Assembly: GCF_018256155.1 (NCBI RefSeq)
Contig: NZ_JAERLY010000001.1
Coordinates: 1 to 64,000 of the forward strand
Length of the DNA: 64,000 bases
Direction of reading: 5' to 3'
DNA from: Gluconobacter sp. Dm-62
Lineage (GTDB): Bacteria; Pseudomonadota; Alphaproteobacteria; Acetobacterales; Acetobacteraceae
The notes beneath the pieces are model-generated. The model searched no databases. It had not been told where the DNA came from and saw only the letters and a program-made list of their open reading frames with translations. This document shows positions 14,780 through 64,000 of this stretch, one piece after another; within the stretch, counting starts at the first letter, position 1, and every line of letters begins with the position of its first letter. The position numbers and the translations under genes are program-made.

Positions 14780-15156
14780 GCAGGCAGCTCCTTGACGGAA
14801 GGAAAAGTTTCCAGCTCCTCATATATGTTATGTTATAACGTATCAACAGAAAGCTGCGCGTTTGTATTCCTGTCTGGTCGCGATCATGTCATCCGCCAGA
14901 TATGCGAAGAGAAATCACCCTCGCCTCAGCGGCAGTATGGCGGAGCGGAGACAACAGCTTCTGTCATGTCGGTTCCGAAAAGACGTCGCTTTCTCCAAAC
15001 GCGGTCCTCCCCTGTCATCCCGACATTCCCGCCTGTCAAGAAAGTGTGTCGTTCCGTCAAGACCACGTGTCGAAAGGTTTGGTAGAGAAAAATATAACAC
15101 ATTCGTATCGACATGAGGGGCGCCTCTGCCTGCTCTTACGAGGAGACGATCATATC
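14780..15156. promoter_or_regulatory. Divergent intergenic region, CobW-like / TonB receptor
   Basis: 377 bp. The left end carries the Zur-like palindrome. An open frame continues upstream of the TonB receptor start (to 14902) but it lacks a signal peptide or family similarity there, so I treat it as leader. A second AT-rich patch, AATATAACACATTCGTAT at about 15091-15108, sits 50 bp before the receptor start and could be its promoter or a weak second metal-regulator half site. I looked for a cobalamin riboswitch (the downstream ammonia-lyase needs adenosylcobalamin) and did not find its conserved boxes. Confidence 0.5.
14825..14845. promoter_or_regulatory. Zur-like operator in the divergent promoter
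   Basis: The sequence TATGTTATGTTATAACGTATC contains the perfect core GTTATAAC at 14832-14839 with near-symmetric flanks (ATGTTATAACGTAT). This resembles alphaproteobacterial Zur boxes, built around an ATGTTATA-type inverted repeat. It is 46 bp upstream of the CobW-like start and in the gap shared with the TonB receptor gene. The box assignment is by eye. Confidence 0.5.
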
Positions 15157-48394: not shown

Positions 48395-51300
48395 TCAGAA
48401 ATGAACGCCAGCCTGTAACTGGAACGCACGGCCAAGGATCACATCATAGTACCGGGCCAACCCAACCGTTCCGACATCTTTGGGCAGGGCATTAAACACG
48501 TTGTTCATCATGAAGTTAACATTGAAGTTCTTCGTGATTTTATAGCCGATCGTCGTATTGAAGTAGAAAAAGTCCTGCCTGCTGTTATCTGTTTCTGCGT
48601 ATTCACCTGCAGTCACGTTAAATTTGGACGGACCGTAGTAAATTGTCTGCCACTGGACGAACAGCGGACCACGGATATAATTAAGGTTAGCCGTAAAAGA
48701 ATCTTTCGGGGAGCTGGTGCTTCCCACTTCAGGATAAGTCGTCCCCAGGAAAGTCTGAGTATTCTTGACGTAATGGTTGTAATTTACGCCGAGGTCGAGG
48801 GCACCCCAATTCTCAAACCGCTTTCCAAAGCGCCGAAGAGGAAGATAATACTTCAACGATCCTTCAAGCGCCTGCATGTGCTGGTTCGCGATGTTCACGA
48901 ACCCTTCCTCATACCCTGTGACCTGATGCGTGCTTGGATCGCGAGTGAACATTTCGCAATACGCATTGGGGAATGATTTGGAATCGTAACAGGCGCTCAT
49001 GATGTCGCTGATCCCCAGATCCATGATCTCGTTGCTGATTTTGACGTCAACAAACGATGCATCGAGCTGAAGCCCCGGCACAAAATGCGGCACAAAATGG
49101 AACGATCCCGTATAGCTGTGAGAAACCTCGTTCTTCAGGCGGGAGTTTCCACCGTCCGATCCATAAATACCGTAATTGACGATATCTGAAACGAAGCCGG
49201 ACGGAATGCCCTGTTTTGCACAGTTTGCCGCACGAATGGCCGGGTTTGGACCCGATGCAATGTCTTCTGCCGCGCAGGGATCGCTGGCCATGTTGTTCAC
49301 GCGGCTCTTGGGAGAGAACAGCTCGGTGACTGAAGGGTTTCGGACTGACTGAGCGTAATTTCCGCTAAATCCAAAGTCTCTCGTAGGCCACCAGCTACCA
49401 CCAAACATGTACGTCCAGTAGCTGCCTGTCATGCTGTTATAGATATATCGCCCATTCGCCGTTGCCGAAATGTTGTATGCTCCCGGAACATGCATCGCGG
49501 GAGAGACAATGGGAACATCCAGTTCTCCAAAGGCTTCATGCGTTCCATAAGCGCCATAGGTATTCGGAACGGGGATCTCATCGCCATACTGGCGAACGCT
49601 ACCGTCAGCCAGGTTTTCACCATTCAGGATGGAGCCTGCATTGAAGTCATAGGACTCCCGACGGTGCTCATAGCCCAGATCCCAGCGAATATCACCGGCA
49701 GGCAGTCTGGCGATCGTGCTGTGCATTTCTGCCTGAATGTCGAACTGGGTGTTCTTGTTCTTGGGATTGACCACGGATGTAATGTAATTGAGTGCCGCAG
49801 GGGTTTCCTGGCCACGCCCAAACACGTTCAGTGGTGCACAGGTTTCACTACGGGTCTTGGCCGTCGAGTTGGTATAGCCGGGCGCGCAGCCAATCGTTCC
49901 ATCAGGCAATGTCACAGCGTCCAGAGCGTTGATAAGGTTGTTCGTATCAACCATCAGGGTCTGGGTATCGCTCAGATATGCGCTGTATTCACCCTTCACA
50001 CTCCAGTCAAAGTGTCGGCCCACAGCGTTAAAATCACCATTAAGTCCGCCCTGGAAACGATACATCTGGTTGGTGGTTGTAAATGCACCTTCGCCAAAAT
50101 CCTGATTGGCACGCGTCAGATAGAACGTATCTGTTGGCTGTCCGGAGGCTTTCAGCGCATTCACGATCGTTGAACGCTCTGACGACGTCAGGAACGGATT
50201 TGACGTGCTTAGAACCAGATTTCCGTTAACGTAACTTTCCGGACTTGCATCGAAGTTGGCCCTTGTTAGCGGAGAACCTTCAAAGGTCGCAGAATAATAG
50301 AGCCCCTGATTAACAGAGCTTTTGGCTTGCCCCCTCTGATACCACCCCTGCCACGTAGCATGTAAATGATCGGTAAAATCATAATGCCCCAAAGTCGTCA
50401 GGTTCAGGGATTGCTGCGGTGTATATAGCTGGTCGTAATCTTCGAAAGACAGACCATTACCGCCGGCAGTATAGTAATTGCTGCGCGTAACCGTGCCGGT
50501 TAGAGGTACGAGAGATTTTCCGTCCTGGCTGAACTGCAACACACCTCCGCCTGCTGCTGCGATACCACCGGATGCGACACCGAAGGTAGAGGGATTGAGG
50601 TTTCCGTTGACCAGCGGAATACCCGTTGCGCTAAGCTGACTGAAACGCTCATTCCGGGTCAGAACATAGTAGTATGGAGAGTCGCTTGTCTTTGCCGGCC
50701 AGAGATATGTCTCTGCACCACTTCCGATAGTATTCCGGCGATCATTGTAAACAAGGCCGTCAGCATTTCGATATTCGACATCGAATACGATTCCACCCTT
50801 GTCGTGATCAAAGCTGGTTCCGTATTTCAGGTAGATTTTTTCTTTTCCACCATCCAGATGCTGCGTCCAGTCACCCTGGGCATTGAAGTCCACGCCCTTG
50901 AAATGATCATCAAGCTGGTAGTTAACGACGCCCGCCACAGCATCGGCACCATATGCTGCACCGGCACCACCGTATCGCGTATCAACTTTCTTCACGAGGG
51001 ATGTAGGAATGGTGCCGACATCGACCTGCGAACCACTCCCCGCACCATAGAGCGATGCCGTAGCACCGCCGACCATGCGCATCCCGTCGACGAGCGTCAA
51101 AGTCCGCTGGTCTCCCAGGGCAAGCAACCCGCTGAATGTCTGTCCTGCACCCCATGATCCCTGACCACCAATCGGGCTGTTGGATGGTACCGAAAATGCC
51201 GGATTTTCGCGCAGCAGAGCCAGTCCAAGGTTGGAATAGCCACGAGCCCGCAACTGGGTTGCGTCCAGCGTTGTCCCTGCGGTTACATCGCTGAGGCGGG

Positions 51301-51628
51301 TCTGCGAAAGCCGGGTGCCCGTAACAGTAATTTCTTCGCTATGCAGAGCGGAAGCAGAAGACGATGCCTGAGAGAGTGTGGCGGATTTCTGAACTGCGAC
51401 CTGCGGCTGCGTAGCCGGCGATGATGCCGTTGCAGCCGTTACCGTATGAGAATCGGTAACTTTTCGTACTGTTTTCTTCTTATGCTTTGAAGATTTCACC
51501 GTTCCATGACGCGGGGAGTCAGAACTCGCGGCGGATGCACCATCAATGTTCCAGCCAGAGACCGTCATTGCAGCCCCAATCAACAGCACCGCTCTTAATC
51601 TCGGCTTGGATGGAAGGCCCGTACACAT
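48395..51628 (-). CDS. Large TonB-dependent receptor
   Basis: About 1077 residues from the ATG at 51628, which has AGGGAG nine bases upstream; an ATG two codons earlier (51634) is only 3 bases from it. A signal peptide (PSKPRLRAVLLIGAAMTVSG) is followed by a Lys/Thr/Ala-rich linker and the plug: EEITVTGTRLSQ, LALLRENPAFSVPSN, RTLTLVDGMRMVGG and YGADAVAGVVNYQLD. The barrel is long and ends in GRAFQLQAGVHF. It resembles the large (TIGR01782-like) proteobacterial receptors. Neighbouring cysPTWA and the LysR gene give no clear substrate; a sulfated or organosulfur ligand is possible. Confidence 0.87.
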   Translation of the reverse strand: MCTGLPSKPRLRAVLLIGAAMTVSGWNIDGASAASSDSPRHGTVKSSKHKKKTVRKVTDSHTVTAATASSPATQPQVAVQKSATLSQASSSASALHSEEITVTGTRLSQTRLSDVTAGTTLDATQLRARGYSNLGLALLRENPAFSVPSNSPIGGQGSWGAGQTFSGLLALGDQRTLTLVDGMRMVGGATASLYGAGSGSQVDVGTIPTSLVKKVDTRYGGAGAAYGADAVAGVVNYQLDDHFKGVDFNAQGDWTQHLDGGKEKIYLKYGTSFDHDKGGIVFDVEYRNADGLVYNDRRNTIGSGAETYLWPAKTSDSPYYYVLTRNERFSQLSATGIPLVNGNLNPSTFGVASGGIAAAGGGVLQFSQDGKSLVPLTGTVTRSNYYTAGGNGLSFEDYDQLYTPQQSLNLTTLGHYDFTDHLHATWQGWYQRGQAKSSVNQGLYYSATFEGSPLTRANFDASPESYVNGNLVLSTSNPFLTSSERSTIVNALKASGQPTDTFYLTRANQDFGEGAFTTTNQMYRFQGGLNGDFNAVGRHFDWSVKGEYSAYLSDTQTLMVDTNNLINALDAVTLPDGTIGCAPGYTNSTAKTRSETCAPLNVFGRGQETPAALNYITSVVNPKNKNTQFDIQAEMHSTIARLPAGDIRWDLGYEHRRESYDFNAGSILNGENLADGSVRQYGDEIPVPNTYGAYGTHEAFGELDVPIVSPAMHVPGAYNISATANGRYIYNSMTGSYWTYMFGGSWWPTRDFGFSGNYAQSVRNPSVTELFSPKSRVNNMASDPCAAEDIASGPNPAIRAANCAKQGIPSGFVSDIVNYGIYGSDGGNSRLKNEVSHSYTGSFHFVPHFVPGLQLDASFVDVKISNEIMDLGISDIMSACYDSKSFPNAYCEMFTRDPSTHQVTGYEEGFVNIANQHMQALEGSLKYYLPLRRFGKRFENWGALDLGVNYNHYVKNTQTFLGTTYPEVGSTSSPKDSFTANLNYIRGPLFVQWQTIYYGPSKFNVTAGEYAETDNSRQDFFYFNTTIGYKITKNFNVNFMMNNVFNALPKDVGTVGLARYYDVILGRAFQLQAGVHF

Positions 51629-51634
51629 GTCCAT

Positions 51635-52313
51635 AAACTCCCTAGTGCGCCACGGTGGCCGCAGGCAATGTTTTTGCCGCAGGAACGATTCCACCCCGCT
51701 TTATTACGATCTCATTTCGAGTTTCCTTTTGTCTATTTCCAAAACGTTCAGACAAATTAACCTACGGTATGTATCCATTGAAACGCACTTCAGAAGCGCT
51801 GCTCTTCAAAATCGAAAACTCGGTGAAACCGGGTTGGATAGATGAAGCGATCATTCGGTTTTCGTATCGGCTGCCGTCGATACAAGGCAGCTATGGAAGC
51901 CGGACTGATTGTCGAGAAACCAAGCATTTGAGTGTTACAGCACCAGTGCGCAGCTCTGACTTTCAACAGGCACAAAATCTGTTTCAGACTGCGCAGCAAC
52001 GGAATTGAGATCCTCCTCCGGCAGGAGGGTCCTGCATTCGCAGGGTCTCTCAAAGCTCCTCAGACAAGAGACAAAAAATACGAACGGGCTGAAGATACCG
52101 TTTGATGTCTTCGATCCAGCCTCCGTGGCGTTACGTCCACTTGGTTTCCCATAGGCATGAGGGGTAATGCTTTGTTCTGCACAAGATATGCATGAACGCA
52201 TTTTTTTATTGCAGGCCCGTGATGACAGTGTTCTCATACAATCTGGTTAGTTAATTTATATATTAAACTATTATATGTGGTTTAATATTGGTGTTTTGTG
52301 AGGCCCGTTAGCA
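51635..52313. other. 679-bp intergenic region, no convincing gene
   Basis: Separates the TonB receptor and the LysR gene, transcribed away from each other. Short open frames occur on both strands but none has a signal, family motif or good ribosome site. It contains CCTCCT-ccggc-AGGAGG (52012-52028), a small hairpin. The AT-rich stretch 52240-52295 (with ATTTATATATTAAACTATTATATG) must hold the LysR promoter. The middle may be decayed sequence. Confidence 0.5.
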
Positions 52314-53561
52314 ATGGAACTTCCTGCGCTCACATACTTTGTGGCTCTGATCGATGCCGGCTCTCCGGCAAAGGCCGCTGAGGCATTGGGCGTCAGTTCC
52401 TCAACCATCAACCACGCGGTCCAGAGCCTCGAACAGTCGATGGAATTTCCCCTTCTCCTGCGCACCCCCAAACGCCGGCACCCTGAGGCCATCCCAACTG
52501 CATGCGGACAAAGCCTGTATCGGTCAGCCGTATCACTTCTGCGTTGGGGCGCAGAGATCGTCTCTTTCCCACAAGACGCACCAGTGAGGTCGCAAAGCCT
52601 GTTACCGCTCTCTGACCTCCAGTTGCTTCTGCAAAGCGGGCTGACCCTTCGCATGATCGGGTATTTTCTGACGGTCTGCGAGGTTGGGAGCGTCGCAAAA
52701 GCAGCCCGCAGGCTCTCCCTGTCACAGCCTACCCTGTCACGCCAGATTCAGAAGCTGGAGAAGATCCTGAACCGTGAACTGTTGATACGCTCCCCTTTTG
52801 GGGTACGGCTCACACCCGGAGCCGAAGCGCTGATGGAAGGATGTCAACGCGCGGATCAGACCTATCGCAGCATCATGCGGGATGAAAATTTCAGCTATTT
52901 CCGCCAGTTCCGAACGTTGCGCCTTGCGTCCATGATGCCTTCAAGCAGCGATAGTTCCCTTACGCTGACACTGGCGAGGCTCGTGCGCCTGTGGCGTGAA
53001 CGCCGCTATCAGCCCACCCTGACCGTTTCCACACTCGCAGCACCCACGATGGTTGAAGGCCTTCTGGGGGACACCTACGACGTTGGTCTCACCGATCTTC
53101 TGGATATCCCTCCCAACCTTGATCACATGGATCTGGAGACATCCGATCTGCATCTGGTTTTCAGCCGTGAACATGTCCCCTCAGGGGCAACGCTGGCCAC
53201 ACTGATCGAGGGAAACACACTGGCCATCCCGGCGTTTGGCACCGGGCTGCGACGGCTGACAGACCAGTTCCTTGAACATACAGGAGTAGCGCCCCAGTCC
53301 CTGTTCGAAACCCAGTCGATTTCCCTCATGCTGCGGCTGGTCATTGACGGAACATGCTGCGCCATCATGCCTGCCGGATCCTTCCGGCAGCAAGATGTGG
53401 ACTCCCTGCCCCTTCCCCCGCGCTATCGCATGACCACCCGCCTGATCTGGAAAAAAGCGCACTCCAATCCAGCCAGCATTGAACGCCTTAAAGCATGCCT
53501 GCTGGAAAACAGGCGTCGCATGGGACCGGAAGCCGGCCGGTTCCGGAAATCCGCAGCATGA
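52314..53561 (+). CDS. LysR-type regulator with two tandem HTH domains
   Basis: 415 residues against the usual 290-320. Residues 3-62 form a LysR winged-helix (LTYFVALIDAGSPAKAAEAL, VSSSTINHAVQSLEQSME). A second, more canonical one occupies about 112-175 (LRMIGYFLTVCEVGSVAKAA, LSQPTLSRQIQKLEKILNRE), followed by a normal effector-binding domain from about 195. The start has GTGAGG ten bases upstream. It directly precedes and overlaps the MFS gene by 4 bp (ATGA), so it is in the same transcript as the putative ergothioneine operon and likely controls it. Two DNA-binding modules in one LysR chain are unusual. Confidence 0.88.
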   Translation: MELPALTYFVALIDAGSPAKAAEALGVSSSTINHAVQSLEQSMEFPLLLRTPKRRHPEAIPTACGQSLYRSAVSLLRWGAEIVSFPQDAPVRSQSLLPLSDLQLLLQSGLTLRMIGYFLTVCEVGSVAKAARRLSLSQPTLSRQIQKLEKILNRELLIRSPFGVRLTPGAEALMEGCQRADQTYRSIMRDENFSYFRQFRTLRLASMMPSSSDSSLTLTLARLVRLWRERRYQPTLTVSTLAAPTMVEGLLGDTYDVGLTDLLDIPPNLDHMDLETSDLHLVFSREHVPSGATLATLIEGNTLAIPAFGTGLRRLTDQFLEHTGVAPQSLFETQSISLMLRLVIDGTCCAIMPAGSFRQQDVDSLPLPPRYRMTTRLIWKKAHSNPASIERLKACLLENRRRMGPEAGRFRKSAA

Positions 53562-54856
53562 CCCTGATCGCTGCGGCTCCCGGCTGGCGACGGCGGCTGA
53601 CTGTCTCCCTGCTCGTGATGGCAGGCTGCATCAGCTATATCGACCGCGCAGCACTCTCCATTGGCAACACCGCCATCATGTCCAGCATGCACATGTCCTA
53701 TACTGGCATGGGGTGGCTGCTGTCCGTTTTCGCCTGGGCCTATCTTGTCAGCCAGATCCCCGCCGGGCTCCTGGCGGATCGTCTGGGTGGACGGATGCTG
53801 CTCGGGGCCGGTCTGTGCCTGTGGTCCTGCGCCCAGATCGGCTTCGGCCTCATGCAGGGCGTGGCAGGACTGTTCGTGTGCCGGATTCTGCTCGGGATGG
53901 GTGAATCTCCTCTTTTCCTGGCGGGAACACGCGTGCTCGTACGCTGGTTTCCACCGGCTGAGCGAGGGACAGTCATCGGGCTTTTCAATGGCTCGGCAGC
54001 CCTCGGACCGGCTCTGGCGCCACCGCTGCTTCTGGCGATCATGGCATTTCAGGGATGGCGCGGCATGTCCGTCAGCATCGGCATGCTCAGCCTGCTGATC
54101 GGGCTGGTCTGGGTGCTCTATTACCGCGACCCCACAGGGCCTGAATCCACTCCGTCCCAGCCGCCGTCCGTTCTGCGCGATGATCTGGGATATCTTCTGC
54201 GCCAACGCTCCAGCTGGGTCGTGACCGCCGGTTTTGCCGGCATTATCTACCTGACCTGGCTGTATGCGACCTGGCTGCCGGCATGGCTCCAGTCCGCCTA
54301 TCATCTTACCGCCACGCAGGCTGGCCTGCTCTCGGCGCTTCCTCAGATCTGCGGCTTTGCCGGCAACCTTACGGGCGGACTGCTTTCCGACCGGCTGATG
54401 TCACGGGGAATGGGAAGACTGGAAGCCTGCCGTCGTCCCGTCGTTCTCTCAATGATCGTGGCGGCGGTCATGACCGGGCTGACTGCACTCAATACCGGTC
54501 TGACCATCTCGATGTTCTTCATGGCAACCGCCCTGTTTGCGGGAGGGGTGGCCATGAGCGCGGGCTGGACGCTTGGGACCGTCATCGCCGCAGAGCATCG
54601 CATTGCGACGCTTGAGGCGATCCAGAATACCGGCGGCTCGCTTGGCGGCGCGCTGGCCCCTGTCATTACCGGCATCATGGTGGATCACTTCGGATCCTTT
54701 GCCCCTTCGATGCTTGTTGCCTGCGGTGTCGGGCTCACCTGCGCTGCCATCTACCAGTTCGGACTTCGTGAAACGGATGCATCGGACAGCCGCGCTCCGC
54801 TTCCAGAGTCCCCTTTCTCCCTGCCGGATCCGGCAAACCGAGGAACGATCAAATGA
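53558..54856 (+). CDS. MFS transporter (ACS/phthalate-permease-like)
   Basis: 432 residues from the ATG at 53558, overlapping the LysR stop; an earlier in-frame ATG at 53495 lies inside the LysR gene. Twelve membrane segments, TM1 ISYIDRAALSIGN, loop LADRLGGRMLLG after TM2, and TM4 RILLGMGESPLFLAGTR, fit the anion:cation symporter family, which takes up organic anions and zwitterions. It is followed by a TonB receptor with ATGA overlap, so it probably moves the operon's substrate across the inner membrane. A second, unrelated MFS gene is in the same operon. Confidence 0.85.
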   Translation: MTLIAAAPGWRRRLTVSLLVMAGCISYIDRAALSIGNTAIMSSMHMSYTGMGWLLSVFAWAYLVSQIPAGLLADRLGGRMLLGAGLCLWSCAQIGFGLMQGVAGLFVCRILLGMGESPLFLAGTRVLVRWFPPAERGTVIGLFNGSAALGPALAPPLLLAIMAFQGWRGMSVSIGMLSLLIGLVWVLYYRDPTGPESTPSQPPSVLRDDLGYLLRQRSSWVVTAGFAGIIYLTWLYATWLPAWLQSAYHLTATQAGLLSALPQICGFAGNLTGGLLSDRLMSRGMGRLEACRRPVVLSMIVAAVMTGLTALNTGLTISMFFMATALFAGGVAMSAGWTLGTVIAAEHRIATLEAIQNTGGSLGGALAPVITGIMVDHFGSFAPSMLVACGVGLTCAAIYQFGLRETDASDSRAPLPESPFSLPDPANRGTIK

Positions 54857-57246
54857 TCACGCGACAGGCTCTCACGCTTTCGACCGTCCTGAGTGGCGTG
54901 GCAATGGTCCCCGCACTTTTTCTGGGACTGCTTTCCAACCCGGCCCGGGCAGCCGACACACTGGACAAAGCGACAAACGCACCACCCCGGGCGCTACATA
55001 CCGCCCCTGCTCCGAAACCTGCGCGGAAGGCACCGGCGAAAACGGAACCCCGCATTCTCGGACACGACGAGGCGATTACCGTCTTCGGCCATGGCTCTAC
55101 CCGCCAGATGACCAGCATTACGCGCACCATGATGCAGCAGAGTGCACCGGGAACGTCCCCGCTCAAAGTCCTGAGCCAGTTGCCCGGCGTCGTCTATCAG
55201 TCCTCCGATCCGTTCGGAGCGTATGAGTATTCCAGCCAGATTTTCATGCGCGGCTTCAGCCAGTCCCAGCTTGGCTTTACGCTTGATGACATTCCGCTGG
55301 GCGACCAGCAGTTCAACAACTACAACGGCCTGAGCGTCACGCGCTCAATCATCTCCGATGACGTCGGCGGTGTGGACGTCTCGCAGGGTGCTGGCGCGAT
55401 TGATGTCGCCTCCACCAGCAATCTGGGCGGCGCGATCCAGATCCATTCCATCGATCCCGATCACAAGCGCGGCGGCACGGTCAGCCAGACCTTTGGCAGC
55501 AATTCAACGATGCGCACCTATGTGCGGCTGGACAGCGGGGACCTCAACAAGTCCGGAACGCGCTTTTATGTGGCCTATGCCCGCACGAACATGAACCTGT
55601 GGAAGGGCGGCGGCTATGATCATTCCGATCAGGTAAATGCCAAAATCGTCCAGCCGCTGGCACGGGGATCATCCATCAAGGCCTTCTTCGACTGGAGCTC
55701 GACGCAGCAGTTCGACTACCAGGACATGACCATGAATTACCTGCATACGGTCGGTCCGAACCTTGCGAACTACTATCCGGATTATACGGCGGCTTATCAG
55801 GCAGCGCAGGGGATCTATCGCCCGGCGCTTCAGAAAACGAATGATCCCTATGACGCAGCCTATTATGCCGGCACGGCCAACCGCGTCGATTATCTGGGCG
55901 GCCTGACGCTGGACGAGAACTTTACAGACCGGCTGAACTGGAAAACCACGCTCTATGGTCATGCCGATACCGGCTACAGCACCTGGACCACGCCTTACAT
56001 GCCGTCTCCGAACGGCGCACCACTCTCACAGCGTATCCAGACGCCGGAGATCGCGCGTGGCGGGTTCCAGACTGCGCTGAGCTACAAGATCGCGCGCCAT
56101 ACGATCAACGCCGGTGTCTGGTACGAATACGGGAACTTCAATGAAAGCCGCTATTTCACCGAGGCCCCGGTTCTGGGACAGGGCACGCTGGGCAATCCCA
56201 CGACGGGCTTCCCGACCAGCAAGGTCTTCGCGCAGCCCTGGCAGGAGGCCTTCTCGACCAACACGTTCGTGTTCCATCTTCAGGACACCTACCGGATCAC
56301 GAAAAACCTGACGGTCAATGCGGGCTTCAAGTCCATGATCGTCAATGCCGGAAACAGCGTCCCAACACAGAGCCTCGCCATCAACGGCACGCAGATCGCA
56401 CAGGGACGGCTTGAAGTCTCCAATGCGTTCCTGCCGCAGGTTTCAGCCAACTGGCGCTTCCTGCCGCATCATGAACTGTTCTTCGACGTCTCGCACAACA
56501 TGCGCTCCTTTCCGGAAGACGGATACGGCACCAATGTCTCCGCAACGCCCTGGACGTCGTCGCAGAGCGCTTTCCAGAGCACGAAGAACACGCTGCGGCC
56601 CGAGACCGACTGGGTCTATGAAGGCGGCTACCGTTACACGACGCCGTTCCTGAGTGCTCTGGCCTCACTGTACCGGATCAACTTCTCCAACCGTCTTCAG
56701 TTGATCAACAGCCAGTCGGGGATCAATCCCGTCACGGCAGTCGAGAACGTGGGCGGGGTGACGACAAATGGTGCGGAAGCCAGCGTCACAATCCGGCCGC
56801 TCGACGGGCTGTCGATCTACAATTCGTTCTCCTATGCCCATTCCACCTACGATCAGGATGTCACGACCGCATCCGGCGTACAGGCGACGCGCGGCAAGCT
56901 CGTGCCGAATTATCCGCAGTTCATGTACAAGGGAAACATCACCTACCGCATCGGCGGCTTCGAGGTGCATGTCGATGGCTCTTACCTGTCCAGCCGACAG
57001 CTGACCTATACGAACGACCTGCACGTCCCGGGCTATTTTCTCGCGAACTTCGGGGCGCGCTACAATTTCGGCAATATCAGCGTTCTCAAAGGGCTGACGG
57101 CAAGCCTGAACATCTACAACCTTGCCAACAAGACCTATGTTTCAACGACCAACGAGCTTGGCAACAATTTCGTCAATACCGGCTACAACTACTTCCTGAT
57201 GGGCGCGCCGCGTCAGTTCTTCGGAACCGTCAGTGCCCATTTCTGA
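54853..57246 (+). CDS. TonB-dependent receptor of the catabolic operon
   Basis: 797 residues with a signal peptide (MITRQALTLSTVLSGVAMVP..., cleavage near ARA-AD) and an Ala/Pro/Lys-rich linker. Plug: EAITVFGHGSTRQ, LSQLPGVVYQSSDPFG, QSQLGFTLDDIPLGDQQF and SQGAGAIDVASTSNLGGA. It is a clear paralogue of the receptor at 15157-17559; the barrel segments KSGTRFYVAYAR and RFLPHHELFFDVSHNMRS match it too. The stop overlaps the next gene by 14 bp. Within this operon it is expected to import the substrate whose catabolic enzymes follow. Confidence 0.88.
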   Translation: MITRQALTLSTVLSGVAMVPALFLGLLSNPARAADTLDKATNAPPRALHTAPAPKPARKAPAKTEPRILGHDEAITVFGHGSTRQMTSITRTMMQQSAPGTSPLKVLSQLPGVVYQSSDPFGAYEYSSQIFMRGFSQSQLGFTLDDIPLGDQQFNNYNGLSVTRSIISDDVGGVDVSQGAGAIDVASTSNLGGAIQIHSIDPDHKRGGTVSQTFGSNSTMRTYVRLDSGDLNKSGTRFYVAYARTNMNLWKGGGYDHSDQVNAKIVQPLARGSSIKAFFDWSSTQQFDYQDMTMNYLHTVGPNLANYYPDYTAAYQAAQGIYRPALQKTNDPYDAAYYAGTANRVDYLGGLTLDENFTDRLNWKTTLYGHADTGYSTWTTPYMPSPNGAPLSQRIQTPEIARGGFQTALSYKIARHTINAGVWYEYGNFNESRYFTEAPVLGQGTLGNPTTGFPTSKVFAQPWQEAFSTNTFVFHLQDTYRITKNLTVNAGFKSMIVNAGNSVPTQSLAINGTQIAQGRLEVSNAFLPQVSANWRFLPHHELFFDVSHNMRSFPEDGYGTNVSATPWTSSQSAFQSTKNTLRPETDWVYEGGYRYTTPFLSALASLYRINFSNRLQLINSQSGINPVTAVENVGGVTTNGAEASVTIRPLDGLSIYNSFSYAHSTYDQDVTTASGVQATRGKLVPNYPQFMYKGNITYRIGGFEVHVDGSYLSSRQLTYTNDLHVPGYFLANFGARYNFGNISVLKGLTASLNIYNLANKTYVSTTNELGNNFVNTGYNYFLMGAPRQFFGTVSAHF

Positions 57247-58603
57247 GAGTAGGACTGCGTCCTCGCGCAGGCGGCTGATTGCAGCGGCCTGCGTGGGCAA
57301 TCTTCTGGAATGGTATGATTTCGCGGTTTATGCGCTGTTTGCGCGCTACATCGCCGCTTCCATCTTCCACAGTGCCGACAGTTTTTCCCAGTTGGCGCAG
57401 AGTTTGCTGGTCTTCGGGCTCGGCGCCGTCGTGCGCCCGCTCGGCGCCATTCTGATCGGACGTTTCGCAGACCGGAACGGACGCGGAGCCGCACTGACGG
57501 TCACCTGCCTTCTGATGGGGATCGGGACGCTCATGATCGTCTGCGATCCGCCTTATGAAACAGGGGGACGGCTATCCATCGTTATCATCTGCGTAGCGCG
57601 CGTGCTTCAGGGATTGTCAGCAGGAGGCGAGATTGGCGGTGCCGCAGCCTTCCTGACGGAGCAGGCGTCAGCAGGCAGCCGAAGTGTAACGGCCTCGTTC
57701 CTTCAGGCCACCATGGGACTGTCCAACATGCTGGGCGCCACCGTAGCGACCCTCGCGACACTCTGCCTTGACCAGGCACAGATGATCTCCTGGGGATGGC
57801 GCCTGCCGTTTGTTGTTGGACTGCTGATCGTTCCAATGGGATTGATCCTGCGGCGCGCACCTGCTTTCGCCGGAACTGGCATTGCTCCGCACCAGTCGGA
57901 AATGCCGGTGCTGAAAACCCTGCTGAAACAGTATCGCCCGTCTCTGGGCGTAGCGTTCGGGGTCTCTGTCCTGTGGACCGCGGCCCCCTATGCGCTGGTA
58001 ATTTACCTGCCGCTCTACATGCAAACAGCGTTCGGGGTTTCTTCCCATACCAGTTTTGCAGCCTATCTGGCTGCGAATGTCGTGCTGGTACTCACGTCGC
58101 TTCTTTCAGGCAGACTGGCCGACCGATATGGGGCACGGAATGTCATGCTGGTCGGGATGCTGCTGGTGGTCCTCGCGCCGGCACCACTTCTTCTGCTGGC
58201 AGGGGCGTTCAGCAATCCGTCAGTCATTACCCTGGTGATGATGGGGCTGTTCGGCACGGTCGGGCTTTTTGCCGGTGCCGCTCCAGAGAGTCTGGCGGCC
58301 CTGTTCCCTCCCGAGATACGCGCCACCGGTATTGCAGCCCCCTACAATGTAGCGGCGGCCTTATTCGGAGGCTTTGCTCCCATGTTCCTGACGTTTCTGG
58401 GGCCGCACTGGCATGGAATACCATCCCCTGCACTCTACATTCTGTTGGCGGCCGTTCCAGCTGCACTGGCGCTTTTGTGGCCACGGAGCCAGGGCCAGCT
58501 CAGGCCTGACACCGCTATAGGACGTGCAACAGAAAGCATACCCTCTCACGACCCGGATGATGGGACAGTCCGTACAGGATCACGGAAGGGAGAGCAGTTG
58601 TGA
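57233..58603 (+). CDS. MFS transporter (metabolite:H+ symporter family)
   Basis: 456 residues. The family start is clear: ACVGNLLEWYDFAVYALFA (TM1), IGRFADRNGRGAALT (loop 2-3), RVLQGLSAGGEIGGAAAF (TM4). This is the MHS group that includes proline/betaine, alpha-ketoglutarate and citrate porters. Betaine-type substrates fit ergothioneine, a trimethylammonium betaine. The ATG lies inside the receptor gene, 14 bp before its stop, and the end overlaps the lyase gene by 4 bp. Confidence 0.88.
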   Translation: MPISESRTASSRRRLIAAACVGNLLEWYDFAVYALFARYIAASIFHSADSFSQLAQSLLVFGLGAVVRPLGAILIGRFADRNGRGAALTVTCLLMGIGTLMIVCDPPYETGGRLSIVIICVARVLQGLSAGGEIGGAAAFLTEQASAGSRSVTASFLQATMGLSNMLGATVATLATLCLDQAQMISWGWRLPFVVGLLIVPMGLILRRAPAFAGTGIAPHQSEMPVLKTLLKQYRPSLGVAFGVSVLWTAAPYALVIYLPLYMQTAFGVSSHTSFAAYLAANVVLVLTSLLSGRLADRYGARNVMLVGMLLVVLAPAPLLLLAGAFSNPSVITLVMMGLFGTVGLFAGAAPESLAALFPPEIRATGIAAPYNVAAALFGGFAPMFLTFLGPHWHGIPSPALYILLAAVPAALALLWPRSQGQLRPDTAIGRATESIPSHDPDDGTVRTGSRKGEQL

Positions 58604-60120
58604 ACGACGTCACACTGACGGGCAGAACCCTGCCGCTCGCCGATCTGGTCAGCATTGCAGATGGCAGACGGATCAGGCTTGCAGAGGCAGGCTTAAGTCA
58701 GGTCCGGGCAGGCCAGAACGCACTCGCCGAGGCACTGGCACGTGGCGATGGTGTTTATGGCACGACAAGCATGGTCGGGGCCTTCAAGGACGCCGTGGTG
58801 ACACCGGAAGACCGTCCACACCACACGCTGCGCCTCATGCGCTCGCATCAGCTTGGCATGGGCGCGCCACTGCCCGTTCGCACTGTCCGGGCCGCCATGG
58901 CCATCCGGCTGAATGGTATCCTGAGTGGCCAGACGGGAGCCGGACCAGATCTCGCGCATGCACTGGCGGCTCTGCTCAATGCCGGCATTACGCCGGTTGT
59001 TCCGGAATATGGATCCATTGGCTGCGCGGATGTGGGACTGATGGGGCATGTCGGGGCGGTCCTGATGGGCGAAGGCGAGGCTTTCGCGCCGGATGGGACG
59101 CGGATGCAGGCTGCTGGTCTGTTGGACCGCTGCAGTCTCAAGCCATTCGTTCCCGGCCCCAAGGACATGATGACCGTGCTGTCCAGCAACGCCCTTGCCG
59201 TAGCGGGCGTTGCACTGATCGTGGCGGAGGTCCGCGCGCGGCTGCCGCTCTGGCTCGGGGTCTATACCGTATCCTGCGCCGGGTTCGGAGCGTTCCGGAT
59301 CCCCTGGGAAGCCGCCAGGCGCACAGGAATGCTGACGGAACAGCGGGTCGCCCGTTTTCTCGAACGCGTCAGCGGGGACGGTGGCTGGACCCCGCGCCGC
59401 AATCTTCAGGACCCGCTGAGTTTCCGTTGCATGCCGCAGATCGGCGGCGCGTTTCTGACGGCTCTGGAACGGGTGGAGGCCTCCCTCGCCTATAGTTTCA
59501 GCCATTGCGACGACAATCCGATCCTGCTGGACGGACGGGCCCTGACATCGGGAGCCTCGCTTCCGCTTTCTCTGGCGCTGGACGCGCAGGCCTTCGTGCT
59601 GGCCCTGTGCCATTACGTCCGGGGTGTTCTGGGGCGCATTCTGGCGCTGTGCCGCAATGACCTGTCCGGTCTTTCACGCAACCTGACTTTCGAACCGGGG
59701 CGACAGGTCGCATTCGGCGCGGCCACCAAGCTTGCGGCCGATCTGGCGACATCCATCCTGCGGGAGTCCACACCGGCCTCGCTTTATCAGGTTCCCGTCG
59801 CCAACGGCTTTGAGGACGAAGCCAGCTACCTGCCGTCCATCGCCCGCGCACTCAGGCTGCAATGCACGCTTCTTGAACCCCTTGTGGCGCTGGAAGCCAT
59901 GGCGGGACGGCAGGCTGTCCGGCTTTCAGGCGCCCTGCCCGAAGGCCTGCCCGGCGCGATCATCGCGGCTCTGTCGCAGGACGTTCCCTGGCTCGACGAC
60001 AGCCACGCGGTGGGAGACGTCGTACAGGCAACCGCGGCTGTCCTTGCAGAGTTCCCGATCCCCTCTGCCCCTGAATTCGCTTCTTCCCAGTCTGACCCGA
60101 TGGAGTGCCTCTATGCATGA
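58600..60120 (+). CDS. Aromatic amino acid lyase-fold protein without MIO triad, probable ergothionase
   Basis: 506 residues from a GTG overlapping the previous stop. It aligns along the whole HAL/PAL fold: GVYGTTSMVG (like YGVNTGFG), LRLMRSHQLGMG, TPVVPEYGSIG, KDMMTVLSSNALA, QDPLSFRCMPQIGGAFLTAL and CDDNPIL. Where HAL has GSVG-ASG-DLAPL, forming the MIO cofactor, this protein has GSIG (138-141) then CADVGLMGH: no Ala-Ser-Gly and one residue fewer, so MIO cannot form in the normal way. Ergothionase (ergothioneine trimethylamine-lyase) is an HAL-fold enzyme that works by acid/base catalysis. The hydantoinase, carbamoylase, DUF917 and urocanase-like genes downstream support that assignment. Confidence 0.78.
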   Translation: MNDVTLTGRTLPLADLVSIADGRRIRLAEAGLSQVRAGQNALAEALARGDGVYGTTSMVGAFKDAVVTPEDRPHHTLRLMRSHQLGMGAPLPVRTVRAAMAIRLNGILSGQTGAGPDLAHALAALLNAGITPVVPEYGSIGCADVGLMGHVGAVLMGEGEAFAPDGTRMQAAGLLDRCSLKPFVPGPKDMMTVLSSNALAVAGVALIVAEVRARLPLWLGVYTVSCAGFGAFRIPWEAARRTGMLTEQRVARFLERVSGDGGWTPRRNLQDPLSFRCMPQIGGAFLTALERVEASLAYSFSHCDDNPILLDGRALTSGASLPLSLALDAQAFVLALCHYVRGVLGRILALCRNDLSGLSRNLTFEPGRQVAFGAATKLAADLATSILRESTPASLYQVPVANGFEDEASYLPSIARALRLQCTLLEPLVALEAMAGRQAVRLSGALPEGLPGAIIAALSQDVPWLDDSHAVGDVVQATAAVLAEFPIPSAPEFASSQSDPMECLYA

Positions 60121-61465
60121 CGTATTGCTGAAAGGAACGGTCGTGACCCCTGCGGCTGTTCTGGAAAATGGCTGGGTTGCCATTGATGGCGCCACGATCA
60201 GCCGCCTGGGTCAGGGAACACCACCTGCAGCGCGCGAGGTGCATGACCATGGCACGAACCTCATCCTGCCAGGCGGAATTGATGCACAGGTGCATTCGCG
60301 CTCCCAGAAGGGACAGGAAGACTTCATCTGGACCACCCGCGCCGCCGCCGCAGGGGGCATCACGACAATCGCCGACATGCCCTATGACGAGGGCTTTCTT
60401 GTCTGCACCGCAGACCGGCTGAAGCAGAAAACCGCGGAAGCGGAGGAACAGGCCCGTGTGGACTTCGCCCTGTGGGGGACGATCGCACCGGGCGACAGCC
60501 TGCACCATATTGGCGAGATGGCCGAAGCCGGAGCCTGCGGCTTCAAGTTTTCGACATTTGGAACCGATCCCAAGCGCTTTCCGCGAATACCGGCCGATCT
60601 TCTGGCGCGCTGTTTTGAAGCCGTGCGCGAGACCGGGCTGATTGCGGGCGTCCATAACGAGGACGATGAAATGGTCCGGGCGCGGCTGGCACAGGTGACG
60701 GAGGCAGGCATTACGGACTGGCGGGCGCACGGGCTGTCCCGTCCTCCACTGACCGAAACGCTCGCAATGGCGCAGATCTATGAAACGGCGGCAGGCACCG
60801 GATGCGCGGCGCATGTGGTGCACTGCTCCGTCGCGCGGGGCTATGCCCTATGCGCGTCTTACCGCCAGCAGGGGTTCGAGACGACCGCCGAGGCCTGCAT
60901 TCATTATCTGGTTCTGGATGAAGAGCATGACGTGGCCCGGTTGGGCGGCCGCGCCAAGATCAACCCGCCCGTCCGTCCAAGGGTGGAAGTGGAAGGCCTG
61001 TGGCACCATCTGGCCGCCGGGAACGTGACAGTCGTCTCCACGGACCATGTCTCATGGAGTCTGGCCCGGAAATCCGATCCGGACATGCTTAAAAATGCAT
61101 CGGGCGGCCCCTCGCTTGAAGTGGTCTACCCCCTGTTCCTGACGGAGCTGGGGCGGCGCAACCTGCCCTGGACACATGCCGCACGTCTGCTGGCGGAAAA
61201 TCCGGCCCGGCTGTTCCGCCTGACCTCACGAAAAGGGGGGCTTGCCGCGGGACGTGACGCAGACATCACGATCGCCCGTCACGAGGAATGGGTTTATGAC
61301 CCGAAAGCCAGCGGCCACGCGTTCGAAAACTGGAGCCCTTATGAAGGGCGCACGCTGGACTGGCGCATTTCCGAAACCTGGCTTCGCGGAGAGCGCATTT
61401 TCGCGGACGGCACCGTTCTGGCCAGGCCGGGGCATGGGCGCTTCGTGAAGCCGGAACAGCCATGA
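60113..61465 (+). CDS. Hydantoinase/allantoinase-family amidohydrolase, probable hydantoin-propionate hydrolase
   Basis: 450 residues from the ATG at 60113 (GGAG seven bases upstream), overlapping the lyase stop. Cyclic amidohydrolase fold: PGGIDAQVHSRSQKGQ, GACGFKFSTFG with the carboxylated-Lys position (about 145), metal-ligand His near 181 (AGVHNED) and 237 (HVVHCS), and Asp near 311 (VVSTDHVSWS). The first metal motif is Q-V-H (59-61) where the family normally has H-x-H. It most resembles allantoinase (ACIHYLVLDEE, KINPPVR). In this operon it would open a 5-substituted hydantoin ring to an N-carbamoyl amino acid, which the next enzyme hydrolyses. Confidence 0.82.
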   Translation: MHDVLLKGTVVTPAAVLENGWVAIDGATISRLGQGTPPAAREVHDHGTNLILPGGIDAQVHSRSQKGQEDFIWTTRAAAAGGITTIADMPYDEGFLVCTADRLKQKTAEAEEQARVDFALWGTIAPGDSLHHIGEMAEAGACGFKFSTFGTDPKRFPRIPADLLARCFEAVRETGLIAGVHNEDDEMVRARLAQVTEAGITDWRAHGLSRPPLTETLAMAQIYETAAGTGCAAHVVHCSVARGYALCASYRQQGFETTAEACIHYLVLDEEHDVARLGGRAKINPPVRPRVEVEGLWHHLAAGNVTVVSTDHVSWSLARKSDPDMLKNASGGPSLEVVYPLFLTELGRRNLPWTHAARLLAENPARLFRLTSRKGGLAAGRDADITIARHEEWVYDPKASGHAFENWSPYEGRTLDWRISETWLRGERIFADGTVLARPGHGRFVKPEQP

Positions 61466-62715
61466 ACGCCGCAGAATTCGTCCAGCCGGATCGCCTATGG
61501 GCCGATCTCATGGCGCTTGCGGAGATCACTGACCCGGAGCGTCCGCATACCCGCCGCTCCTTTTCCGAACGCTTCCTCGATGGACGCCGCTGGCTGGAAC
61601 AGCGCTTCACCGAGGCCGGTCTCACCTGCCATCTGGACGACGCTGGCAACCTGATCGGACGCCGCGCCGGTGCCGTTGACGGAGCCGGAACACTCATGAG
61701 CGGGTCACATTCGGACACGGTCCCGGACGGGGGGCGTTTCGATGGCATTCTGGGCGTGCTCTGCGCACTTGAAGCCGCCCGCGCCTTCCGGGATGCAGGT
61801 CTGGTCCTGCAGCACGATTTCGAAATCGTCGATTTCCTTGCCGAAGAGCCCAGTGATTTCGGGCTATCTTGTATTGGCAGCCGAGGCATGGCGGGCGCGT
61901 TGACAACAGAACAGCGCGCTCTTGTCGCCCCGTGGGGAGAGACGCTGGCGCAGGCCATGACGCGGATGGGAGGACGGCCCGAGCATCTGGACACGCCGCG
62001 CCGGACCGACCTGCGGGCCTTTCTTGAGGTTCATATCGAACAAGGCATTGTTCTGGAACAGGACGGCCTGCCGATCGGAGCCGTCACGGCCATCGCCGGC
62101 GTCACGCGTATCGAAATTCTTTTTGGCGGCCGCGCGGACCATGCGGGCACGACACCGATGGACCGCCGGCAGGATGCCGCCGTGGCAGCAGCGTCTGTCA
62201 TCACATTCGTCAGCCGGCGGGCGGGTGAACTGGCGCAGTCCGGTCAGGGACATGTGACAGCCACGTGCGGGATCGTCGAGATCTCGCCCAATGCTTCCAA
62301 TGTTGTGCCGCGTTCGGCGCGGATCGTGGTCGATATCCGGGTTTCGGAACGTGCCGTGGTCGAGGGCTTTGCGGAAGAACTGGAAGCCGCCTGTCGCTCG
62401 GCCGCCTCAGAGGCTCATGTGCGGCTGGAGCGTTTCATGCGCCTGTCGGACACAAAGCCGGTTGCCTGTGATGCAGGTCTGGTCCGGAGGATCGGGCAGG
62501 CCGCCGGGCAGCTTGGACTGAAATACCGTCTGATGGTGTCCGGAGCAGGCCATGACGCTGCTTTCGTGGCCCGGCTGTGTCCATCAGCGATGCTCTTCGT
62601 GCCGTGCCGGGACGGGCGCAGTCATGACCCGGAGGAATGGTGCACGCCGCAGGATGCCGCGAATGGCGCGCGCGTCCTGACGCAGGCGCTTCAGGATATC
62701 GATCGCGATTTTTGA
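61462..62715 (+). CDS. N-carbamoyl-amino-acid hydrolase (M20-type amidase)
   Basis: 417 residues, overlapping the previous gene by 4 bp. Metal-site segments: GSHSDTVPDGGRFDGILG, DFLAEEPSDFGLSCIGSRGM and HIEQGIVLEQDGLPIGAVTAIAG in part, then RADHAGTTPMDRRQDA in the dimerisation domain. This is the L-carbamoylase/allantoate amidohydrolase family (TIGR01879 type). It cleaves the carbamoyl group to NH3 + CO2 and a free amino acid. With the hydantoinase and urocanase-like genes, N-carbamoyl-L-glutamate is the likely substrate; a ureido acid from allantoin is the alternative, but no other purine gene is present. Confidence 0.88.
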   Translation: MNAAEFVQPDRLWADLMALAEITDPERPHTRRSFSERFLDGRRWLEQRFTEAGLTCHLDDAGNLIGRRAGAVDGAGTLMSGSHSDTVPDGGRFDGILGVLCALEAARAFRDAGLVLQHDFEIVDFLAEEPSDFGLSCIGSRGMAGALTTEQRALVAPWGETLAQAMTRMGGRPEHLDTPRRTDLRAFLEVHIEQGIVLEQDGLPIGAVTAIAGVTRIEILFGGRADHAGTTPMDRRQDAAVAAASVITFVSRRAGELAQSGQGHVTATCGIVEISPNASNVVPRSARIVVDIRVSERAVVEGFAEELEAACRSAASEAHVRLERFMRLSDTKPVACDAGLVRRIGQAAGQLGLKYRLMVSGAGHDAAFVARLCPSAMLFVPCRDGRSHDPEEWCTPQDAANGARVLTQALQDIDRDF

Positions 62716-62771
62716 ATGACGCGCTCTCCCGGGAATGCCGGTGAGACGCAGGACGACAAGGATGACGCAGG

Positions 62772-63884
62772 ATGGGTAGAATTCTGGTTGCAAAAGACGT
62801 GGAGGCCGCAATCCTTGGCGGATCGGTCTTCGCCTGTGGTGGTGGTGGCTGGGTCGAGCACGGCCGGATGTTGGGCACGGCAGCGGTCAATACCGGACAG
62901 CCGGAACTTGTCTGTGCGGAAGAGATTGAAGACGATGCCATTATTGCCACGGCAGCGGCGATCGGTGCGCCTGCAAGTACAACGGAATGGCAGATGCTGG
63001 GTGTCGACTACGTCAACGCCGTAAAGCTCGTCCAGAAAGAACTGGGACAACCGATTTATGGTCTTATGATCGGGCAGAACGGCAAGTCCAGCACGCTCAA
63101 CGCCTGGCTGCCCGGCGCGATTCTGGGCACGAAAGTCGTCGATGCGGTCGGAGATATGCGGGCCCATCCTACCGGTGACATGGGCTCCATCGGCATGGCC
63201 AACTCCCCCGAGACGATGATTCAGGCGGTCGTTGGCGGCAACCGCTCCCGCAATGCCTATATCGAGATGGTCGCAAAAGGGGCGACCGCGCGGATTTCGC
63301 CCATCCTGCGGACCGCGTCCGATATGTCAGGCGGCTTTATCGCATCCTGCCGCAACCCGCTTCCCGCATCTTACGTCAAGCGCCATGCCGCGTGGGGGGG
63401 CATCTCCCGCGCGCTCGCACTGGGAGAAGCCATTCTCGAAGCATCCGGCAAAAGCGGAAGTGCCGTGATCGATGCCATTGTAAAAACGCTCGACGGAACC
63501 ATTCTCGCGCAGGGCAAGGTCAGTCGCAAATCGGTCACATACACGTCCGAAGCGTTCGATGTCGGGACCATCACGGTCGGACAGGGCGCATCTGCCGTCA
63601 CGCTGCATGTCATGAACGAATACATGGCCGTTGATGATGCGCACGGTCAGCGTCTGGCGTCCTTCCCCGACATCATCACGACACTCACGCCGGACGGTTA
63701 CCCCCTGAGCGTCGGGGAGATCGAGGACGGCATGGAAATCCTTGTCCTGCACGTGGAAAAATCAAAGTTCCCCCTCTCGTCGAGTGTCGTGGATCCCAGC
63801 GTTTACCCGCCCGTCGAACGCGCTCTGGGCATCGATCTTGCAAGCTATGCGCTCGCTCCCTCCCCCACTGGCAAGGACTCCTGA
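62772..63884 (+). CDS. DUF917 / S-methyl-thiohydantoin-desulfurase family protein
   Basis: 370 residues. Family features: N-terminal DVEAAILGGSVFACGGGGWVEHG, TAAAIGAPAS, MIGQNGKSSTLNAWLPG, VVDAVGDMRAHPTGDMGSIG and a C-terminal beta domain beginning near 250. This DUF917 family is linked to hydantoin catabolism and has been renamed for S-methyl thiohydantoin desulfurase activity (from memory of the Pfam entry). In a thiohydantoin pathway it would remove sulfur to give hydantoin-5-propionate, the substrate for the hydantoinase. It follows the carbamoylase by 56 bp with a weak ribosome site. Confidence 0.8.
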   Translation: MGRILVAKDVEAAILGGSVFACGGGGWVEHGRMLGTAAVNTGQPELVCAEEIEDDAIIATAAAIGAPASTTEWQMLGVDYVNAVKLVQKELGQPIYGLMIGQNGKSSTLNAWLPGAILGTKVVDAVGDMRAHPTGDMGSIGMANSPETMIQAVVGGNRSRNAYIEMVAKGATARISPILRTASDMSGGFIASCRNPLPASYVKRHAAWGGISRALALGEAILEASGKSGSAVIDAIVKTLDGTILAQGKVSRKSVTYTSEAFDVGTITVGQGASAVTLHVMNEYMAVDDAHGQRLASFPDIITTLTPDGYPLSVGEIEDGMEILVLHVEKSKFPLSSSVVDPSVYPPVERALGIDLASYALAPSPTGKDS

Positions 63885-63887
63885 GAC

Positions 63888-64000
63888 ATGACCAACCGAA
63901 CTTTCGACGTCACGTCCGGCAACACGCTGCGCTGTCGGGGATGGCGACAGGAAGGGCTGCTCCGGCTTCTGGAAAACGTGCTGTCCGTCGGGGAAGATCC
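63888..64000 (+). CDS. Urocanate-hydratase-family protein, N-terminal part (probable thiourocanate hydratase)
   Basis: Partial gene cut by the window end, ATG a few bases after the DUF917 stop. The 37 readable residues include GNTLRCRGWRQEGLLRLLEN and SVGEDP, which match the start of urocanases (G-T-x-L-x-C-K-G-W-x-Q-E-A-A-L-R-M-L-x-N-N-L-D-P). Urocanase hydrates urocanate to imidazolone propionate with NAD+ as catalytic electrophile; a paralogue hydrates thiourocanate in ergothioneine catabolism. Only the N terminus can be read, so paralogue identity is inferred from the operon. Confidence 0.72.
   Translation, partial: MTNRTFDVTSGNTLRCRGWRQEGLLRLLENVLSVGED

Follow-up and report, generated by a model that had tools for sequence, protein, structure and literature searches.

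Our analyses indicate that the Gluconobacter-type acetic acid bacterium examined here very probably carries a nine-gene operon for ergothioneine utilization (ert operon), with ergothioneine as the candidate substrate. The operon is complete and conserved. Its enzymes are known, and the degradation pathway itself is already known and curated; what is new is the arrangement of transporters and regulator around them. Ergothioneine, a mushroom antioxidant made by fungi and actinobacteria, is valued as an antioxidant nutrient, and to our knowledge both the organisms that destroy it and its passage across the outer membrane are poorly known. Beliaeva, Leisinger and Seebeck reportedly described a five-step bacterial ergothioneine catabolism. 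The operon resembles that route in having the four later enzymes, each above its model cut-off, and a lyase without the MIO group for the first step. It differs in occurring in acetic acid bacteria and in uniting the enzymes in one operon with a TonB receptor, two MFS carriers and a LysR regulator with tandem helix-turn-helix (HTH) domains.

The window, that is, the whole stretch of 64,000 nucleotides that was analysed, corresponds to bases 1 to 64000 of contig C11 in a 3.46-Mb genome that is 99.99% complete. All nine genes lie on the plus strand, from 52314 to base 65531 of the contig, and the gaps between neighbours in operon order are -4, -4, -14, -4, -8, -4, +56 and +3 bases, most of them overlaps. 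The first gene encodes the LysR-type regulator (52314 to 53561; Pfam HTH_1 in two stretches and LysR_substrate). It is followed by MFS1 (53558 to 54856; Pfam MFS_1), which is 2A0114-like with this best NCBIfam match below cut-off and whose start was placed from relatives, as in loci L070 to L072, and by the TonB-dependent outer-membrane receptor (54853 to 57246; Pfam Plug and TonB_dep_Rec). MFS2 (57233 to 58603) is of the metabolite:H+ symporter type (2A0106, TcuC/ProP/ShiA-like), with all NCBIfam matches below cut-off. The remaining genes encode the candidate ergothionase, a 506-residue protein of the HAL fold (58600 to 60120; PF00221); the hydantoin-5-propionate amidohydrolase ErtD (60113 to 61465; NF058538); the N-carbamyl-L-glutamate amidohydrolase ErtE (61462 to 62715; NF058540); a thiohydantoin desulfurase of the S-Me-THD/DUF917 family (62772 to 63884; NF058529); and thiourocanate hydratase (NF058530), of which the window holds the first 113 bases (63888 to 64000).

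The original prediction had listed this gene content (lyase, hydantoinase, carbamoylase, DUF917 protein, urocanase, two MFS genes, TonB receptor and LysR gene), and all of it is present. Its start at 53558 holds for MFS1 but not for the operon, which begins with the LysR gene at 52314; only the final bases of that gene had been taken in, and it runs in the same direction as the others rather than divergently. The prediction had further proposed that a full urocanase be sought past position 64000, and the gene is indeed complete on the contig, encoding 547 residues and ending at base 65531. No sigma-70-like site was found upstream of the LysR gene, nor was a terminator-like site found directly after the hydratase gene.

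The later steps were assigned using NCBIfam equivalog models. The hydratase scored 994.4 bits against NF058530 (cut-off 930), the desulfurase 605.1 bits against NF058529 (cut-off 440), ErtD 743.5 bits against NF058538 (cut-off 600) and ErtE 563.8 bits against NF058540 (cut-off 520). The solved sequence nearest to the hydratase is 7ned, at 811 bits. A second urocanase, encoded on contig C50 of the same genome, provided an internal control for the discrimination between hydratase and HutU by NCBIfam: it scored 967 bits as HutU (cut-off 375) and failed as thiourocanate hydratase with 696 bits (cut-off 930). Since this separate HutU is present, the copy on C11 is not the sole urocanase of the genome. 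The expectation that every step would have a candidate was borne out, with four of the five enzymes above equivalog cut-offs and the lyase assigned by motif, tree and fold. As judged from these sequence matches, the reading of the enzymes as a route from ergothioneine to glutamate is well supported, because four cut-offs are exceeded and the lyase lacks MIO and is placed accordingly by tree and fold.

The lyase is not named by any NCBIfam model; it matches models for histidase and other MIO enzymes, each time with a score below cut-off. Its top match among PDB sequences is the Treponema denticola ergothionase 6s7j (170 bits), followed by 7tqr, a probable histidase (138 bits), and the Pseudomonas putida HAL (about 95 bits). 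As had been predicted, this HAL-fold protein is devoid of MIO: the Ala-Ser-Gly (ASG) triad is absent and GSIG-C-AD stands in its place. For comparison, 101 candidate ORFs were collected, 13 from repeat loci and one more were left out, and the resulting 88 sequences, including 6s7j, were reduced to 62 alignment rows by dropping near-copies above 95%. All 44 ert and ergothionase rows have a one-residue-shorter [C/E]-[A/G]D at the MIO position. ASG is found in 12 of the 62 rows, comprising 11 histidase-like proteins of the family and L111, an ASG-type histidase on an ert contig; these rows were chosen for having ASG, so its retention in them is not a result. Outside the ert group, five family lyases have the same gap and no ASG, with the motifs GSIG-[A/G]-GD (L010, L012 and L014) and GSVG-E-AD (L013 and L017), and the lyase encoded on C50 has a three-residue gap at this position.

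A further position was compared in 14 rows. The Tyr of QDPYSLR, found in all three ASG rows, is replaced by Leu (DPL) in the window lyase, in the T. denticola enzyme and in six other ert rows. When the motif is taken as QD(P/Q)Y, Leu occupies the position in the other 11 of the 14 rows. These include the C50 lyase, L010 and L013, so Leu tracks the loss of ASG and not ergothioneine alone. Neither the short loop nor the Leu is diagnostic for ergothionase.

The window lyase shares with 6s7j the HAL fold, the missing MIO triad, the one-residue-shorter loop and QDPLSFR, whereas the two proteins are only about 26% identical and differ at the MIO position (GSIG-C-AD in the window, SSIG-E-GD in 6s7j). 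In the phylogenetic tree, the window lyase, 6s7j and the ert-linked lyases form one clade with support of 93/91, on a branch that is not starred, in a midpoint-rooted tree with long branches. The lyases of acetic acid bacteria form one group with support of 100/100 (the root of the tree being arbitrary). Placement among MIO-less enzymes of another function, which the original prediction had named as grounds for abandoning the assignment, was not observed; the lyase groups with 6s7j. The structure predicted for the lyase has a pLDDT of 87, and a fold search with this model returned the 6s7j chains at ranks 1 to 3 (TM 0.89 to 0.90, rmsd 2.2, 26% identity in the structural alignment), ahead of the HALs, with the P. 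putida enzyme at TM 0.85 to 0.87. By motif, tree and modelled fold, the protein is a predicted ergothionase.

Two other readings of the enzymes were weighed against ergothioneine degradation. A parallel pathway with its own NCBIfam models acts on S-methyl-ergothioneine, and the operon might in principle serve that compound instead. Both discriminating models fall below cut-off (the hydratase scores 743 bits against NF058531, with a cut-off of 880, and the desulfurase 282.1 bits against NF058532, with a cut-off of 450), while the ergothioneine models score above theirs, which makes this reading very improbable. The lyase and the urocanase homologue could also be taken as a duplicate of ordinary histidine degradation, being homologous to HutH and HutU. 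With no MIO triad, with a desulfurase, a hydantoinase and a carbamoylase adjoining, and with HutI, HutF, HutG and HutU encoded separately on C50, we consider such a duplicate scarcely credible. Enzyme family membership and the absence of MIO are computational observations, as are the order of the genes and the conservation of the operon described below.

The hut locus on C50 contains HutI, HutF, HutG and HutU and, by eye, HutD- and HutC-like genes. A second HAL-fold lyase without MIO is encoded in this locus (C50:105226-106716; L004:7226-8716), with GSVG, the three-residue gap, LTHM and QDALSLR. No further PF00221 protein besides this one and the operon lyase was found in the genome of the window, which therefore apparently lacks an MIO histidase. 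At E 1e-90, lyases of this type were found in three of the 200 family genomes, namely G000, G123 (81%) and G179 (48%); in G123 it is the sole HAL-fold match, while G179 has four. As a guess, the C50 lyase may use a substrate whose leaving group is better, for example converting hercynine to urocanate and trimethylamine.

The distribution of the operon was examined in genome samples and among named genomes. The hydratase exceeded its cut-off in three of the 200 family genomes (G000, G060 and G174), and a close lyase was found in the same three (100, 56 and 67%), the next being at 33% or below. None of the three other genomes of the same genus in the family sample had the operon hydratase. Across the phylum, six of 398 genomes, the window's own included, had a desulfurase above cut-off. 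The scan of named genomes used the thiohydantoin desulfurase as query, and the best 80 of its 431 relatives were used, 12 from acetic acid bacteria (three Gluconobacter, three Acetobacter, five Gluconacetobacter and one Komagataeibacter) and 68 from others. The order MFS1, receptor, MFS2, lyase, ErtD, ErtE, desulfurase and hydratase is the same in all 12 acetic acid bacterial loci among these 80; their flanks cover only the C-terminal part of LysR, with the fragment in L081 below the coverage limit. The full nine-gene order including LysR was also found in G060 and G174. The latter is very probably the same as L077 (Gluconacetobacter asukensis), the receptors being identical, so the conserved loci are not 14 independent cases. 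The gene order is not due to chance and is conserved across four genera.

Among named relatives, the nearest to the operon proteins belong to Gluconobacter (91 to 94% for the lyase, 96 to 97% for the receptor). The pathway had been expected to be new in an acetic acid bacterium. With at least 12 public acetic acid bacterial genomes carrying the operon, it is not new as sequence; the expectation stands insofar as no report of ergothioneine breakdown in these bacteria was found in the searched literature, which lay mostly outside subscription journals. The bacteria listed with ergothionase in a passage of one paper (PMC13405746) include no acetic acid bacterium.

The 68 loci outside the acetic acid bacteria (L082 to L149, from Rhizobiales, Burkholderiales, Pseudomonas and others, again among the best 80 of 431) encode related ert enzymes in a gene order that differs from that of the window operon. 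One of them, L087, is recorded as Bacillus subtilis strain SK6B4; it matches the Pseudochrobactrum loci L084 and L091 in layout and lyase length, which probably reflects mislabelling or contamination of the record. The ert genes of L143 (Rhizobium tropici) are set in a housekeeping-like stretch where, by eye, no transporter ORF adjoins them, unlike the acetic acid bacterial operon.

Relatives of MFS2 with 41 to 46% identity are present in 17 of these 68 loci (best 80 of 431) and adjoin the lyase gene in L106, L109 and L127; their position varies, and most of the 68 have none. Because relatives of MFS2 are also found alongside ert genes in other classes, we propose it, on this comparison of sequences, as the best candidate for the inner-membrane ergothioneine permease. 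The LysR regulator has two N-terminal winged HTH domains, at about residues 1 to 60 and 112 to 170, whose HTH stretches are 37% identical over 52 residues. Full-length relatives occur in L039 and L040, and the ert loci of Rhizobiales and other groups contain relatives whose alignment starts at residue 1 (L067, L068, L095, L096, L116, L144, L148 and L149). Some of the LysR proteins in loci outside the acetic acid bacteria (best 80 of 431) align over both HTH stretches and, in contrast to the window gene, lie on the opposite strand where they are found upstream. If the two domains hold in those relatives, the tandem-HTH LysR would be an old companion of the pathway and no accident of one genome.

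The receptor has a PF07715 plug and a PF00593 barrel, both above cut-off, and by eye a signal-peptide-like start and a likely TonB box, EAITV. No solved relative was found by sequence at E 0.001, and the structure model, made from a 7-row alignment, has a pLDDT of 26 and is unusable. At E 1e-3, none of the 68 other ert loci (best 80 of 431) has a receptor relative; 13 of them are shorter than 20 kb, so absence there is weak. Ergothioneine uptake through a TonB-dependent receptor was not reported in the searched literature, mostly outside subscription journals. An outer-membrane receptor in the operon is new for the ert pathway, and ergothioneine is its candidate cargo. Elsewhere in the window, a second receptor (14902 to 17559, plus strand) is about 42% identical to the ert receptor, and a 1099-residue ORF (48395 to 51694, minus strand), divergent from the operon, is TonB-receptor-like by eye.

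A receptor of at least 68% identity was found in seven of the 200 family genomes, three with ert genes and four without a hydratase above cut-off, so the receptor does not occur only with ert genes. The close relatives without ert genes (68 to 85% identity) are accompanied by MFS1 relatives. In G042, G025 and G022, the neighbourhood of the receptor includes an MFS1 relative (44 to 59%) together with genes for an XRE-type regulator and for proteins of the desaturase and PhnD families; G048 has the receptor and an MFS1 relative (67%) without the XRE, desaturase-family and PhnD-family genes. The original idea of a dedicated receptor holds to the extent that the gene is part of the operon in all 12 acetic acid bacterial loci (best 80 of 431), and is weakened by the occurrence of receptor and MFS1 relative without ert genes.

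The second gene set of acetic acid bacteria, made up of the XRE-type regulator, the desaturase-family membrane protein, the PhnD-family protein, an ert-type TonB receptor and an MFS1 relative, was located at L154:3980-10447, L156:8947-15567 and L157:4449-10893. By eye, its PhnD-family protein apparently has no signal peptide, and the protein gave just weak binding-protein matches in NCBIfam and the PDB. The XRE, desaturase-family and PhnD-family genes were not matched anywhere among the 80 named ert loci (best 80 of 431), nor in L039 to L040, L064 to L069, L003, L004 and the window, and the desaturase-family protein has no match in the window's own genome. No solved relative of this protein was found by sequence at E 0.001. 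The nearest relatives of the G042 protein in the family sample are those of G025 (57%) and G022 (52%). The surroundings of desaturase-family genes were examined in three plasmid records out of 81 with a match: on two Rhizobium plasmids the neighbours include ABC genes of the PhnD type and of the peptide or amino-acid type, and on a Phaeobacter plasmid the gene lies near one for a carnitine 3-dehydrogenase.

Since the receptor and MFS1 are found with both ert and non-ert sets, the pair either moves between two gene sets or is common to them. Either the compounds on which both sets act are related, or the pair lacks specificity for ergothioneine; the receptor may carry a wider range of cargo than ergothioneine, or a different one. 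We regard it as a serious possibility, if somewhat short of an even chance, that the pair imports a wider class (several betaines or heterocyclic acids) or some other compound and came to be associated with the ert genes, on one or more occasions, within the acetic acid bacteria, leaving ergothioneine to MFS2 and porins. The division of the seven genomes between ert genes (three), the desaturase-PhnD set (three) and an MFS1 relative alone (one) agrees with this, as does the receptor tree, where the ert-linked rows are not one clade but are split by G042 and G048 and starred branches force three changes. It is also in line with MFS2 being the operon carrier that has relatives at ert loci outside the acetic acid bacteria (17 of 68; best 80 of 431). 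Against it, the receptor is present in 12 of 12 acetic acid bacterial loci (best 80 of 431) and overlaps both MFS genes in the window, and a common substrate class would itself be compatible with ergothioneine. It is rather unlikely that the pair works as an import cassette which takes up ergothioneine or a closely related betaine and can be coupled interchangeably to the ert enzymes or to the desaturase-PhnD set. If it did, that set would be a new route for the same compound or a relative of it, and the receptor would be without precedent as an outer-membrane receptor for a betaine of this kind.

For the ert operon as a pathway for ergothioneine, we infer the substrate, what all three transporters carry and in which direction, and the ligand of the regulator. 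The TonB receptor and the inner-membrane carriers, most likely MFS2 and possibly MFS1, would import ergothioneine, and the MIO-less lyase would split it into thiourocanate and trimethylamine. The hydratase would then convert thiourocanate to thiohydantoin propionate, the desulfurase would exchange sulfur for oxygen to give hydantoin-5-propionate, ErtD would open the ring to N-carbamyl-glutamate and ErtE would release glutamate, ammonia and CO2. Ergothioneine or one of the intermediates is probably the signal to which the tandem-HTH LysR responds. Dumitrescu et al. 2022 are said to have described ABC importers of the EgtU/EgtV type for ergothioneine uptake in bacteria; the window operon, by contrast, has no ABC transporter gene, and the proposed route is by receptor and MFS.

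Ergothioneine is a betaine of 229 Da, and compounds of such size usually pass the outer membrane through porins. The receptor is a candidate, open to experiment, for taking up such a betaine actively across the outer membrane, and the conserved carrier MFS2 and the tandem-HTH LysR are candidates for its permease and sensor. From the operon one would predict that ergothioneine is consumed, with release of trimethylamine, by the acetic acid bacteria of fruit, flowers and insects.
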